Of a DNA stretch of 64,000 bases, positions 8,810-38,898 are shown in pieces. Where the stretch lies: positions 3,003,001 through 3,067,000 of the forward strand of contig NZ_BSDR01000001.1 in assembly GCF_027925305.1 (NCBI RefSeq). Reading direction: 5' to 3'. This DNA comes from Desulforhabdus amnigena. Its GTDB lineage: Bacteria; Desulfobacterota; Syntrophobacteria; Syntrophobacterales; Syntrophobacteraceae. The number at the start of each line of letters is the position of its first letter. Within the stretch, counting starts at the first letter, position 1. Under the pieces are notes generated by a model that was given only the letters and a program-made list of their open reading frames with translations, did no database searches and was not told the DNA's origin. A program made the translations under genes and the position numbers.

Positions 8810-9517
8810 CTACCCGGATATCTGCCAGCGAGTAATAAAAAGAGCTGCACGTTCCTCCGGAAGGACTTCGGACCCAGCGTCAGTCCCTTCGTCTTGCTGG
8901 GAACAGACACAATTGCGGCCTTTGGTCTTTGCCTCGAGAAGGTATTTGTCCGCTCTCTTGATAAATTCATCCGCATCGAACTTATCGGTGGCCTTATAGA
9001 CTTCCACTCCAAAGCTGGCCGTCAGGCGGATCTCCCGCCCATCGAATTCGAATCCGGCATCGGCAAGAATCGTACGGAGACGATGCGCAGTCAACACAGC
9101 TTTTCGCAAAGAAGTCGCCGGTAAGATGAGAGTGAACTCCTCGCCTCCGTAGCGGCAAAGAATATCGTTCACCCGTATGCTATCACGCCAGAGTCTGCTG
9201 ACCCACCGCAGAGCAGCATTGCCGGCCTGGTGTCCGTAAGTATCATTTATTTTTTTGAAATAATCGAGATCGATCATGATGACGGCGAGAGGAAACCCTG
9301 TCCGCCGCGTCCGTTCCATCTCTCGCTCAAGAGATACCTGAAGATACTGAAAATTGAAGATTCCCGTCAAAGGATCACACTGACTGAGCGCGGCAACCCG
9401 ATCATATTCTTTCTTCAAGTGCTCGTATTGCTCTTTGAGACGCTCGATTTCGGCAATAAGAGGGCAATCCGTCTTTCCAACCGGACAAGATATAACATCT
9501 TTACAGTGTTGTTCCAA
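8810..9517 (-). CDS. diguanylate cyclase with GGEEF domain
   Basis: Cytoplasmic enzyme that makes cyclic di-GMP from two GTP. Residues about 20-42 form a short coiled coil, followed by a full GGDEF domain with the start motif DPLTGIFN and the active-site loop RYGGEEF. RVND lies five residues before GGEEF, matching the RxxD product-inhibition site, so feedback control by c-di-GMP is likely. There is no recognisable sensor domain; N-terminal cysteines (C5, C11, C18) may bind metal or respond to redox. It is a candidate source of ligand for the GEMM riboswitches at 38.7 kb. Confidence 0.92.
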   Translation of the reverse strand: MEQHCKDVISCPVGKTDCPLIAEIERLKEQYEHLKKEYDRVAALSQCDPLTGIFNFQYLQVSLEREMERTRRTGFPLAVIMIDLDYFKKINDTYGHQAGNAALRWVSRLWRDSIRVNDILCRYGGEEFTLILPATSLRKAVLTAHRLRTILADAGFEFDGREIRLTASFGVEVYKATDKFDADEFIKRADKYLLEAKTKGRNCVCSQQDEGTDAGSEVLPEERAALFITRWQISG

Positions 9518-28536: not shown

Positions 28537-29673
28537 ATGAAACCTTTTGCATCCGTTACACGCATCCAAAAAACCAAAATAAAAAAGAAATCCAATCCCT
28601 CAGATTCACTCGTACAGATTCGAGAGGAAAACGAAGCGCTTCGTCTGCAACTGCAATATGTCGCTGAAACAGCGGCGGAAAATGAAAAGATCTGGCGTCA
28701 CTTTGCGGAAATCGAACGGATTCTTTTCAGAACCCGCGAACTGAATCAACTTGCCGAAGAGCTCCTGAAAGAAATCAAAAGCCGTTTTCAGCCGGATCAG
28801 GCCATTTTACTGCTCTGCCATCCCGATCTTCTGGAAAGGTTTTTTCCGGACATCTCCAATGAAAGTGAACCCATCGGCGAAGGCGCATGGATCCTCCCGT
28901 TTCCCATGGAAATGGGATCGTCCCTCTGCAGCGGCACCTCAAAACCCTTTCTCCTCTCCCCAGACAACATAGAAGGGCTCCTCCGCTTTCTCCCTGAAGT
29001 GGTTTCTTCGACCCGCTCGGGGGTCTTCATTCCCTTGAGAGTCCACCAGATAGTTTTTGGGGGGCTTTTCCTGGGCAGTACGGACGCAGAACGGTATCGT
29101 CCCAAAGATGGAACCGATCTGCTGGAGCAGTTGGGGATGAAAATCGCTCTTTGCATGGACAACTGCCTTGCCTACGAAAGGGTCAAGGAGTTCAGCGTTC
29201 AAGACCCCCTCACCGGCCTGCTCAATTACTTTCAGATCCAAATCGTTCTGGAAAGGGAATTCCGAAAAGCCCGCCGCCGCAACGCTCCCCTCTCCGTCCT
29301 GATCATTCATCTCGATTTCGGGCATGAAATCCATGAACATTTCAACATGGGAAATGCCTTGATCAAACACGCTGCCGGGTTGTTGCAGGAAACTCTTCCG
29401 GCAGACGAAAGCTTTCTGGGGCGTTATGGAAACGATGAATTCGTTGTGGTACTCCCCGGAGTCCAGGAGGAAGAAGCGAGAGAAGTCATTCCATATCTTT
29501 TTAAAATAATAAGAAAATCTCCATTCAGGCACGAGAATGCGGTCATCCTTCTTAAAACCCTCATGGGGGTCGGTGCCCTCAGCGCAGAAACGGAGCGACC
29601 ACAAGATTTGCTGGATGCGGCGTACACGGAACTCTACCGCATCAAACTCTCTCCATTCGAATCCAATGGATGA
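28537..29673 (+). CDS. GAF-like plus degenerate GGDEF-domain protein
   Basis: A 378-aa cytoplasmic signalling protein. An N-terminal coiled coil (about 25-60) precedes a GAF-like sensor region (about 65-215) and a GGDEF domain beginning DPLTGLLNYFQIQ. The active-site loop reads RYGNDEF, with Asn replacing the second Gly, and several substrate-binding positions after DPLTGL are altered, so cyclase activity is doubtful and it may act as a receptor or scaffold. The first base triplet of the open frame is TTG at 28534; the ATG at 28537 is preferred. Confidence 0.8.
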   Translation: MKPFASVTRIQKTKIKKKSNPSDSLVQIREENEALRLQLQYVAETAAENEKIWRHFAEIERILFRTRELNQLAEELLKEIKSRFQPDQAILLLCHPDLLERFFPDISNESEPIGEGAWILPFPMEMGSSLCSGTSKPFLLSPDNIEGLLRFLPEVVSSTRSGVFIPLRVHQIVFGGLFLGSTDAERYRPKDGTDLLEQLGMKIALCMDNCLAYERVKEFSVQDPLTGLLNYFQIQIVLEREFRKARRRNAPLSVLIIHLDFGHEIHEHFNMGNALIKHAAGLLQETLPADESFLGRYGNDEFVVVLPGVQEEEAREVIPYLFKIIRKSPFRHENAVILLKTLMGVGALSAETERPQDLLDAAYTELYRIKLSPFESNG

Positions 29674-37880: not shown

Positions 37881-38594
37881 TTATCTAATTTCGGGCCAAA
37901 GTGGGCTAGGGCGAGATCGAGTTGTCTTCGCCAGTACGTGCTCTCTTGATGCGATCATAGGGATTTGGGCGAACTGCCGTCCTTTGTTCTTCAGTACTTC
38001 AATTCGATCCTCTGAAGAGAGGTATATGCTCTCGAATTTTATGGGAATAAAAGGCACGATTTGGAAAGAAACCGGCATCATTAAACCTGAATTGCTATGT
38101 GCGTGAGAAAAAATAAAAGCATGCCCTACTTCATGCAGCAGCGTGCGCTTGTCCAGATGTTTGACTACAATATATCGCCTGTATGTGTCGTCGATGCATC
38201 CTTCCCAGGCCCCCACGAGATTCCTTGTCAAAAGTTCTCCTGTCGTCCATCTGGTAAACCCAATGGCCAAATCAAATTCATACCCTTCGGTTGATCTTGC
38301 GAGTTCTTCGAGCATTGGGATAACATCTCGATTTTCCCATTGGATCCAAATATATTTTAAGGGAATGAACGTTATCCCAACCTGCTCACGGAATATCTCG
38401 GAACATTCCTGAAGAAATTGGTCTATTTGATCTCTGGTATGGCTGCCATCCGAAGCGACGAGGATTTTTAATTCTCTAACGGGCTGATTCTGAGCCATAA
38501 AGTCTGAATCATTCATTTGATTCTTCACGGTAGCACAAGCAGAAAGAATCAACAAAAAAACCAGTAATACATGGAGTCTCAATGTGTTCTTCAT
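37881..38594 (-). CDS. zincin-like lipoprotein metalloprotease behind tandem GEMM riboswitches
   Basis: Predicted envelope lipoprotein of 237 aa. The signal peptide ends in LILSAC (lipobox). The catalytic motif HEVGHAFIFSH has the HExxHxxxxxH arrangement of metzincin/matrixin zinc proteases, followed by SGLMMP, which resembles a Met-turn. The ATG at 38594 follows AGGAGG with six-nt spacing; an upstream in-frame start is less likely. Two GEMM-type aptamers with terminators lie in the 5' leader, so expression should respond to a cyclic dinucleotide. The substrate is unknown; control of adhesion or matrix proteins is an inference. Confidence 0.8.
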   Translation of the reverse strand: MKNTLRLHVLLVFLLILSACATVKNQMNDSDFMAQNQPVRELKILVASDGSHTRDQIDQFLQECSEIFREQVGITFIPLKYIWIQWENRDVIPMLEELARSTEGYEFDLAIGFTRWTTGELLTRNLVGAWEGCIDDTYRRYIVVKHLDKRTLLHEVGHAFIFSHAHSNSGLMMPVSFQIVPFIPIKFESIYLSSEDRIEVLKNKGRQFAQIPMIASREHVLAKTTRSRPSPLWPEIR

Positions 38595-38670
38595 ACCAGT
38601 CCTCCTTTCCAAATCCGGGATTCATCCCCTTCTAGAATTAGACAAGCCTGGACCACTTCACACACAAAGA

Positions 38671-38775
38671 CAAAAAAGCCGGGCGACCTCTTCCAAGGCA
38701 ACCCGGCTGTCTCCTCAAAGACCCGTGGCTTTCCGTCCCCACCTTACAATGGGTTTGGCTTTAGCTGTATCAAGG
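38671..38775 (-). ncRNA. GEMM (c-di-GMP-I family) riboswitch, gene-proximal copy
   Basis: On the minus strand the segment reads AGCCAAACC, then GGGGACGGAAAGCCACGGGT and GACAGCCGGGTTGCC, the conserved core of GEMM-I aptamers. Against the Vibrio Vc2 aptamer, position 20 is G, and the G21-C46 pair is replaced by C21-G46, a compensating change. The 3' strand AGCCGGG (38708-38702) can instead pair with CCCGGCT (38683-38677) to make a terminator followed by TTTTTT. Ligand binding would hold that strand in the aptamer and allow read-through, so an ON switch is predicted. Confidence 0.88.
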
Positions 38776-38796
38776 TATTGTTTGGCAAGTACAAAA

Positions 38797-38898
38797 ACAA
38801 AAAGCCGGGCGACCTCTTCCAAGGCAACCCGGCTGTCTCCTCAAAGACCCGTGGCTTTCCGTCCCCACTTTACAATGGGTTTGGCTTTTCTCTTTCGT
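38797..38898 (-). ncRNA. GEMM (c-di-GMP-I family) riboswitch, distal copy
   Basis: Near-identical to the proximal copy, offset by 126 bp. I find a single base difference in the aligned core (ACTTTAC against ACCTTAC, forward strand), implying recent duplication. It has its own AGCCGGG/CCCGGCT terminator followed by TTTTTG. A transcript must therefore pass two ligand-controlled terminators before the zincin gene. Confidence 0.88.

Follow-up and report, generated by a model that had tools for sequence, protein, structure and literature searches.

The minus strand of the 64,000-nucleotide stretch of Desulforhabdus amnigena DNA analysed here (the window) very probably carries, ahead of a gene for a predicted lipoprotein, two type II class I c-di-GMP riboswitches that act as ON-type attenuators in series and are both opened by c-di-GMP (Table 1). 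Our working model is that the leader of the lipoprotein gene consists of two complete units of this kind. When c-di-GMP is lacking, GCCGGGUUGCC, the 3' strand of the aptamer in each unit, would go into a terminator and transcription would stop; with c-di-GMP, the aptamer would keep the GCCGGGUUGCC strand, the terminator would be blocked and polymerase would pass. As a full transcript would need passage of both stops, read-through should be roughly the product of the two, and the doublet would be expected to leak less and to respond more steeply. Dose–response arithmetic gives, for an output rising from 10 to 90%, a ligand change of ~40-fold for the doublet as against 81-fold, if the copies are equal and independent. 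A promoter scan of the minus strand between 37200 and 39200 returned no sigma-70-like promoter.

Table 1. Features of the tandem leader and the gene that follows it (window positions)
Feature	Position	Strand	Basis
c-di-GMP-I aptamer copy 1, transcribed first	38819..38894	-	RF03167 65.4 bits, RF01051 66.7 bits
90-nt repeat copy 1, one mismatch to copy 2	38799..38888	-	Repeat search
Intrinsic terminator 1, hairpin 38803-38834 + U-rich tail	38793..38834	-	Energy fold -23.0 kcal/mol
c-di-GMP-I aptamer copy 2	38693..38768	-	RF03167 69.4 bits, RF01051 66.2 bits
90-nt repeat copy 2, core aptamer + terminator	38673..38762	-	Repeat search
Intrinsic terminator 2, hairpin 38677-38708 + U tract	38671..38708	-	Energy fold -23.0 kcal/mol
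Shine-Dalgarno AAGGAGG of downstream gene	38601..38607	-	Read from sequence
Downstream gene, presumed target, 237-aa predicted lipoprotein	37881..38594	-	ORF

Rfam covariance models identify two complete class I c-di-GMP (GEMM-I) aptamers on the minus strand of the window, and both copies score above the gathering score of RF01051 (35 bits) and above that of RF03167 (59 bits). A 90-nt direct repeat of 99% identity, with a start-to-start distance of 126 nt and 36 nt of unlike sequence between its copies, spans the core aptamer and the terminator. The lone mismatch in the core, read from the sequence, is an A in copy 1 and a G in copy 2 that faces a U in P2, where pairing is preserved as U-A or U-G. 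The likeness goes no further than the 5' edge of the core. Outside it P1 and J1/2 are unlike, P1 is short in both copies in the Rfam alignments, and at position 14 copy 1 reads A and copy 2 reads G, the commoner base (G in 72/99 and A in 15/99 of the G20/C21-G46 aptamers whose 3' end could be recognised). In Vc2 numbering both copies read G20, C21-G46, C22-G45, A47 and C92, and G20, A47 and C92 are the Vc2 residues expected to matter for c-di-GMP binding (PMC11218506, cited, like the other papers below, for the portions available to us). The same source describes type I aptamers as having both loop and receptor, and type II aptamers as carrying a GYRA loop and lacking a matching tetraloop receptor. 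Both window copies have a GUAA tetraloop and neither has CCUAA after GGAAAGCC, the receptor being judged by the CCUAA motif alone; by these marks they belong to the type II c-di-GMP-I subtype.

The two aptamers have separate expression platforms. In each unit this is a hairpin (-23.0 kcal/mol) that overlaps the aptamer and leads into a U run. In both units the 5' arm of the terminator is made up of the 3' strand of P3 plus the GCC carrying C92, so that aptamer and terminator are mutually exclusive. Both hairpins come from energy folding; the consensus terminator scan listed neither. When the 3' arm of the terminator was blocked, P2 and P3 returned in both units and the minimum energy went from -41.9 to -31.5 kcal/mol (+10.4) in unit 1 and from -42.1 to -28.8 kcal/mol (+13.3) in unit 2, in folds that take in neither tertiary contacts nor co-transcriptional kinetics. 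These competing folds are consistent with the ON direction that we infer, and the reading of the leader as stops in series is supported by its anatomy and by the parallels described below. Much of this anatomy had been anticipated by an earlier, sequence-only reading of the same DNA. Its two copies 126 bp apart that differ by one base in the core are those of the repeat, with the likeness limited to core and terminator; its GEMM-I core in each copy is confirmed by both covariance models, including the RF01051 search of the minus strand that it had proposed; its terminator competing for an aptamer strand corresponds to the hairpins above; and its C21-G46 pair in place of G21-C46, with G20 kept, stands as read. 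Its further claim of two ligand-controlled stops in series is supported by the aptamer matches, repeat, hairpins and folds, the control itself being presumed.

The two stops might not be equivalent. The differences in P1 and J1/2 (A14 versus G14) may give the copies different affinities for c-di-GMP, in which case the leader would be a two-threshold gate, with the higher threshold in the upstream copy, and not a simple doubling; we put this forward only tentatively, and think it the less probable design. Copy 1, without G14 and with a short P1, could bind weakly. A more extreme version, in which a single copy switches and the other is a fresh duplicate that serves mainly as a constitutive stop, seems to us unlikely. 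It draws on the A14 and altered P1 of copy 1 and on the single change in the 90-nt repeat, which indicates that the duplication or conversion was recent; but G20, A47 and C92 are intact in both copies, the lone change leaves the P2 pair intact, and A14 is also present in 15/99 comparable aptamers.

For the favoured reading, in which both copies switch, the ligand of the tandem is, judging from sequence, most likely c-di-GMP. All of the aptamers in the window's own genome have G20 (8/8) and none has A20 (0/8). Five GGDEF domains were found in this genome: at the Hypr position three carry the canonical Asp and one carries Asn, the fifth is degenerate, and none of the five is of the Ser type (0/5), Ser at that position being the Hypr GGDEF signature (PMC6456294). 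The third C21-G46 aptamer of the genome (contig positions 1246185-1246265, plus strand) precedes a PilZ-domain gene. At the five other aptamer loci the next frame, picked mechanically at all such loci, has Pfam domains in four cases (Ig/cadherin-type in two, subtilase, and glucodextranase B domain) and encodes 75 aa in the fifth. These aptamer-linked genes present the usual c-di-GMP picture. As a separate observation, the window itself holds a GGDEF domain (GGEEF; 8912-9382, minus strand) with Asn where canonical domains have Asp and Hypr domains Ser, and a degenerate one (GNDEF; 29197-29652, plus strand) that has no recognisable GHxxGD motif and is probably inactive.

The sequence-only reading had proposed that the swapped pair next to the binding pocket may tune the choice between c-di-GMP and cGAMP. 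Carried further, the tandem would sense 3',3'-cGAMP, as GEMM-Ib aptamers do, with the swapped pair as part of the cGAMP pocket, which we consider highly improbable. The pair is indeed that of the cGAMP riboswitch crystal, in which P2 runs from C15 to G40 with A14 before and A41 after (PMC6274999); in the Vc2 numbering, by a mapping made in this analysis, this is C21-G46 with A20 and A47. With positions 20, 21 and 46 left free, an aptamer pattern matched in 108/117 genomes of the Geobacter-centred order, and the 150 matches listed (from 24/117 genomes) comprise 120 A20/C21-G46, 6 A20/G21-C46, 19 G20/C21-G46 and 5 G20/G21-C46. Among these, C21-G46 is the majority pair with A20 (120/126) and with G20 (19/24) alike, the swap being mildly enriched with A20 (Fisher p = 0.017, kinship uncorrected). 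A further 47 rows, from genomes picked for holding the swap, divide into 4 A20/C21-G46, 3 A20/G21-C46, 32 G20/C21-G46, 7 G20/G21-C46 and one odd case. The window copies, however, have G20 and not A20, and an A20G change makes a cGAMP aptamer select c-di-GMP (PMC6456294). They also have C22-G45, whereas U22-G45 is found in 120/120 A20/C21-G46 matches listed for the Geobacter-centred order, as against 3/19 of the G20/C21-G46 matches listed there and 1/165 G20/C21-G46 cores in the pooled set; U22-G45 as a defining feature of GEMM-Ib is our own reading of these data. The lack of a Ser-type Hypr domain among the five GGDEF domains found points the same way. The ligand thus appears to be tracked by position 20 and, in these data, by the 22-45 pair, and on the 150 matches listed we rejected C21-G46 as a ligand determinant in spite of its mild enrichment with A20.

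Nor is the swap unusual. Strict pattern counts over 395 genomes of the phylum, which for both patterns required AAA before G20 and exact flanks and so missed variants of either kind, gave C21-G46 in 37/395 and G21-C46 in 27/395. A scan of one genome per species found at least 117 stretches with C21-G46, the matches listed including many Desulfo- and Geobacter-type genomes, Methylomonas, Vibrio, Enterovibrio, Campylobacteraceae, Nitrospirae and Acidobacteria; the pair is present in 3/8 aptamers of the window's own genome and in 3/4 of those in one other genome of the genus. What the pair does accompany is the loop and receptor. In 221 distinct pooled cores, from loci chosen by pattern and with p values uncorrected for kinship, a GAAA loop was found in 17/35 G21-C46 cores versus 8/186 C21-G46 cores (p ~2e-10), and the CCUAA motif, taken as the receptor, in 15/35 versus 8/186 (p ~1e-8). 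Because these counts follow its orientation, the 21-46 pair goes with structural subtype, and because C21-G46 occurs with both A20 and G20, we read it from these sequences as a mark of subtype and not of ligand. This link was not met in the available portions of the literature searched, in a search that was not exhaustive. In practical terms, C21-G46 should not be taken as a cGAMP signature.

We also think it very unlikely that the two aptamers are members of the c-di-GMP-I-GGC variant class (RF03167) and have a ligand that is altered or unknown. Both copies exceed 59 bits with RF03167, and it is the family that cmscan lists for both; yet its consensus has G at the position of Vc2 A47, from which the name of the class presumably comes, and both copies have A. 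Copy 1, moreover, scores better with RF01051 (66.7 versus 65.4), and several aptamers with ordinary G20, A47 and C92 are matched by RF03167 as well. Membership of the GGC variant was rejected on A47. That the doublet is an assembly artefact, to which near-identical repeats are prone, can be dismissed with near certainty, given that the genome assembly consists of a single 4.54-Mb contig, that one base sets the copies apart and 36 nt of dissimilar sequence lies between them, and that near-identical neighbours occur elsewhere. Indeed, near-identical neighbouring aptamers are nothing special: among 39 neighbouring pairs in loci fetched by pattern, and so not a random sample, one shows full identity across 64 nt, and two others share the window pair's value of 0.98.

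The presumed target of the doublet is the gene for a 237-aa predicted lipoprotein, whose ATG at 38594 lies six bases past AAGGAGG; the ORF list gives a longer start, TTG at 38612. The protein begins with an LSAC that we take to be lipobox-like and contains HEVGH, which we take to be an HExxH motif. Nothing in Pfam, NCBIfam or, by sequence, the PDB matched it over cut-off, and a single-sequence structure prediction was set aside for its mean pLDDT of 36.8. Relatives were found in 2/55 genomes of the class, its own included: a paralogue in the same genome (2170205-2170879) with 66% identity and a relative in a sister genome with 61%. Both keep HEV(G/A)H and GLMMP, and neither has an Rfam match within 1.5 kb (E <= 0.1), the doublet being specific to the window copy among the three copies of the gene. 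The proposed switch would thus tie c-di-GMP to an uncharacterised HExxH lipoprotein with two relatives that are without it.

Larger arrangements were seen outside the window. A regular-expression tandem count over 117 loci gave one cluster, with many matches near the ends of loci, so that no frequency can be derived from it. In six arrays c-di-GMP-I aptamers stand close together, at distances of 73-113 nt; the arrays lie at loci L185/L243 (G403:C87), L237 and L244 (G582:C75 and C79), L238 and L245 (G647:C122 and C136) and L242/L246 (G692:C78). By sequence they hold four aptamers each, or five in L237 and L238; Rfam confirms 4/4 in L185, 4/5 each in L237 and L238, 3/4 in L242 and 2/4 each in L244 and L245, some being masked in the matching because neighbours overlap. 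No terminator hairpin was seen by eye between the aptamers of the arrays, and a crude U-run flag was raised in three gaps (L242, L244 and L245). The frames that follow the six arrays encode small exported-looking proteins with a QAGI/QAGF motif, and at all six CUGU...ACAG stands directly before an AAGGAG-like site, a placement that hints at translational control. The arrays are present in 4/146 genomes of one order, five more genomes having the pattern without an Rfam match. The available part of one survey lists only doublets and triplets for c-di-GMP-I (PMC9481103). Arrays of four or five aptamers look more novel than the window doublet. RF03167 (GGC) or RF03168 (UAU) labels fall on aptamers with G20, A47 and C92 in L237, L242, L244, L245 and L246, as well as at 38693-38894 of the window. 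The cut-offs of both families thus seem, from these sequences, to admit ordinary c-di-GMP-I aptamers of type II, for which the GGC and UAU labels look unreliable.

The window doublet is a further example of a well-known arrangement. Within the portions available, c-di-GMP-I leads all classes of the survey in tandems, with 347 doublets and 12 triplets (PMC9481103), and enrichment of the family in tandem arrangements is described for Thermodesulfobacteriota and Deinococcota (PMC12452182). In the Bc3-5 triple of Bacillus thuringiensis (PMC4759541), as in the surveyed tandems, complete units of aptamer and terminator, all of one class, stand in series; these systems are likewise of the ON type, which for the window is our inference, and precede genes for surface or exported proteins. 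The natural triple was reported to be tighter in its control than the double, and the double than the single, with double and triple tandems more stringent and more digital than singles (PMC4759541). The window differs in having two units, of type II with C21-G46, in copies that are almost identical, before the gene of an uncharacterised lipoprotein. Geobacter GEMM-Ib riboswitches (pilM, GSU1761, and the tandem before omcAHG; PMC6456294, PMC9262584) share with it terminator–aptamer strand competition and tandems, C21-G46 (120/126 A20 matches listed) and a GYRA loop (21/21 A20/C21-G46 cores), but have A20 and U22-G45 in place of the window's G20 and C22-G45. Type I c-di-GMP-I aptamers, Vc2 among them, share G20, A47, C92, the three-helix layout and a GNRA loop, and differ in G21-C46, with the GAAA loop in 17/35 and the CCUAA receptor in 15/35 such cores. 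The c-di-GMP-I-GGC family (RF03167) matches the window above its cut-off, though the window is without the consensus G47. Set among these systems, the leader is one more clean doublet of a class already known.
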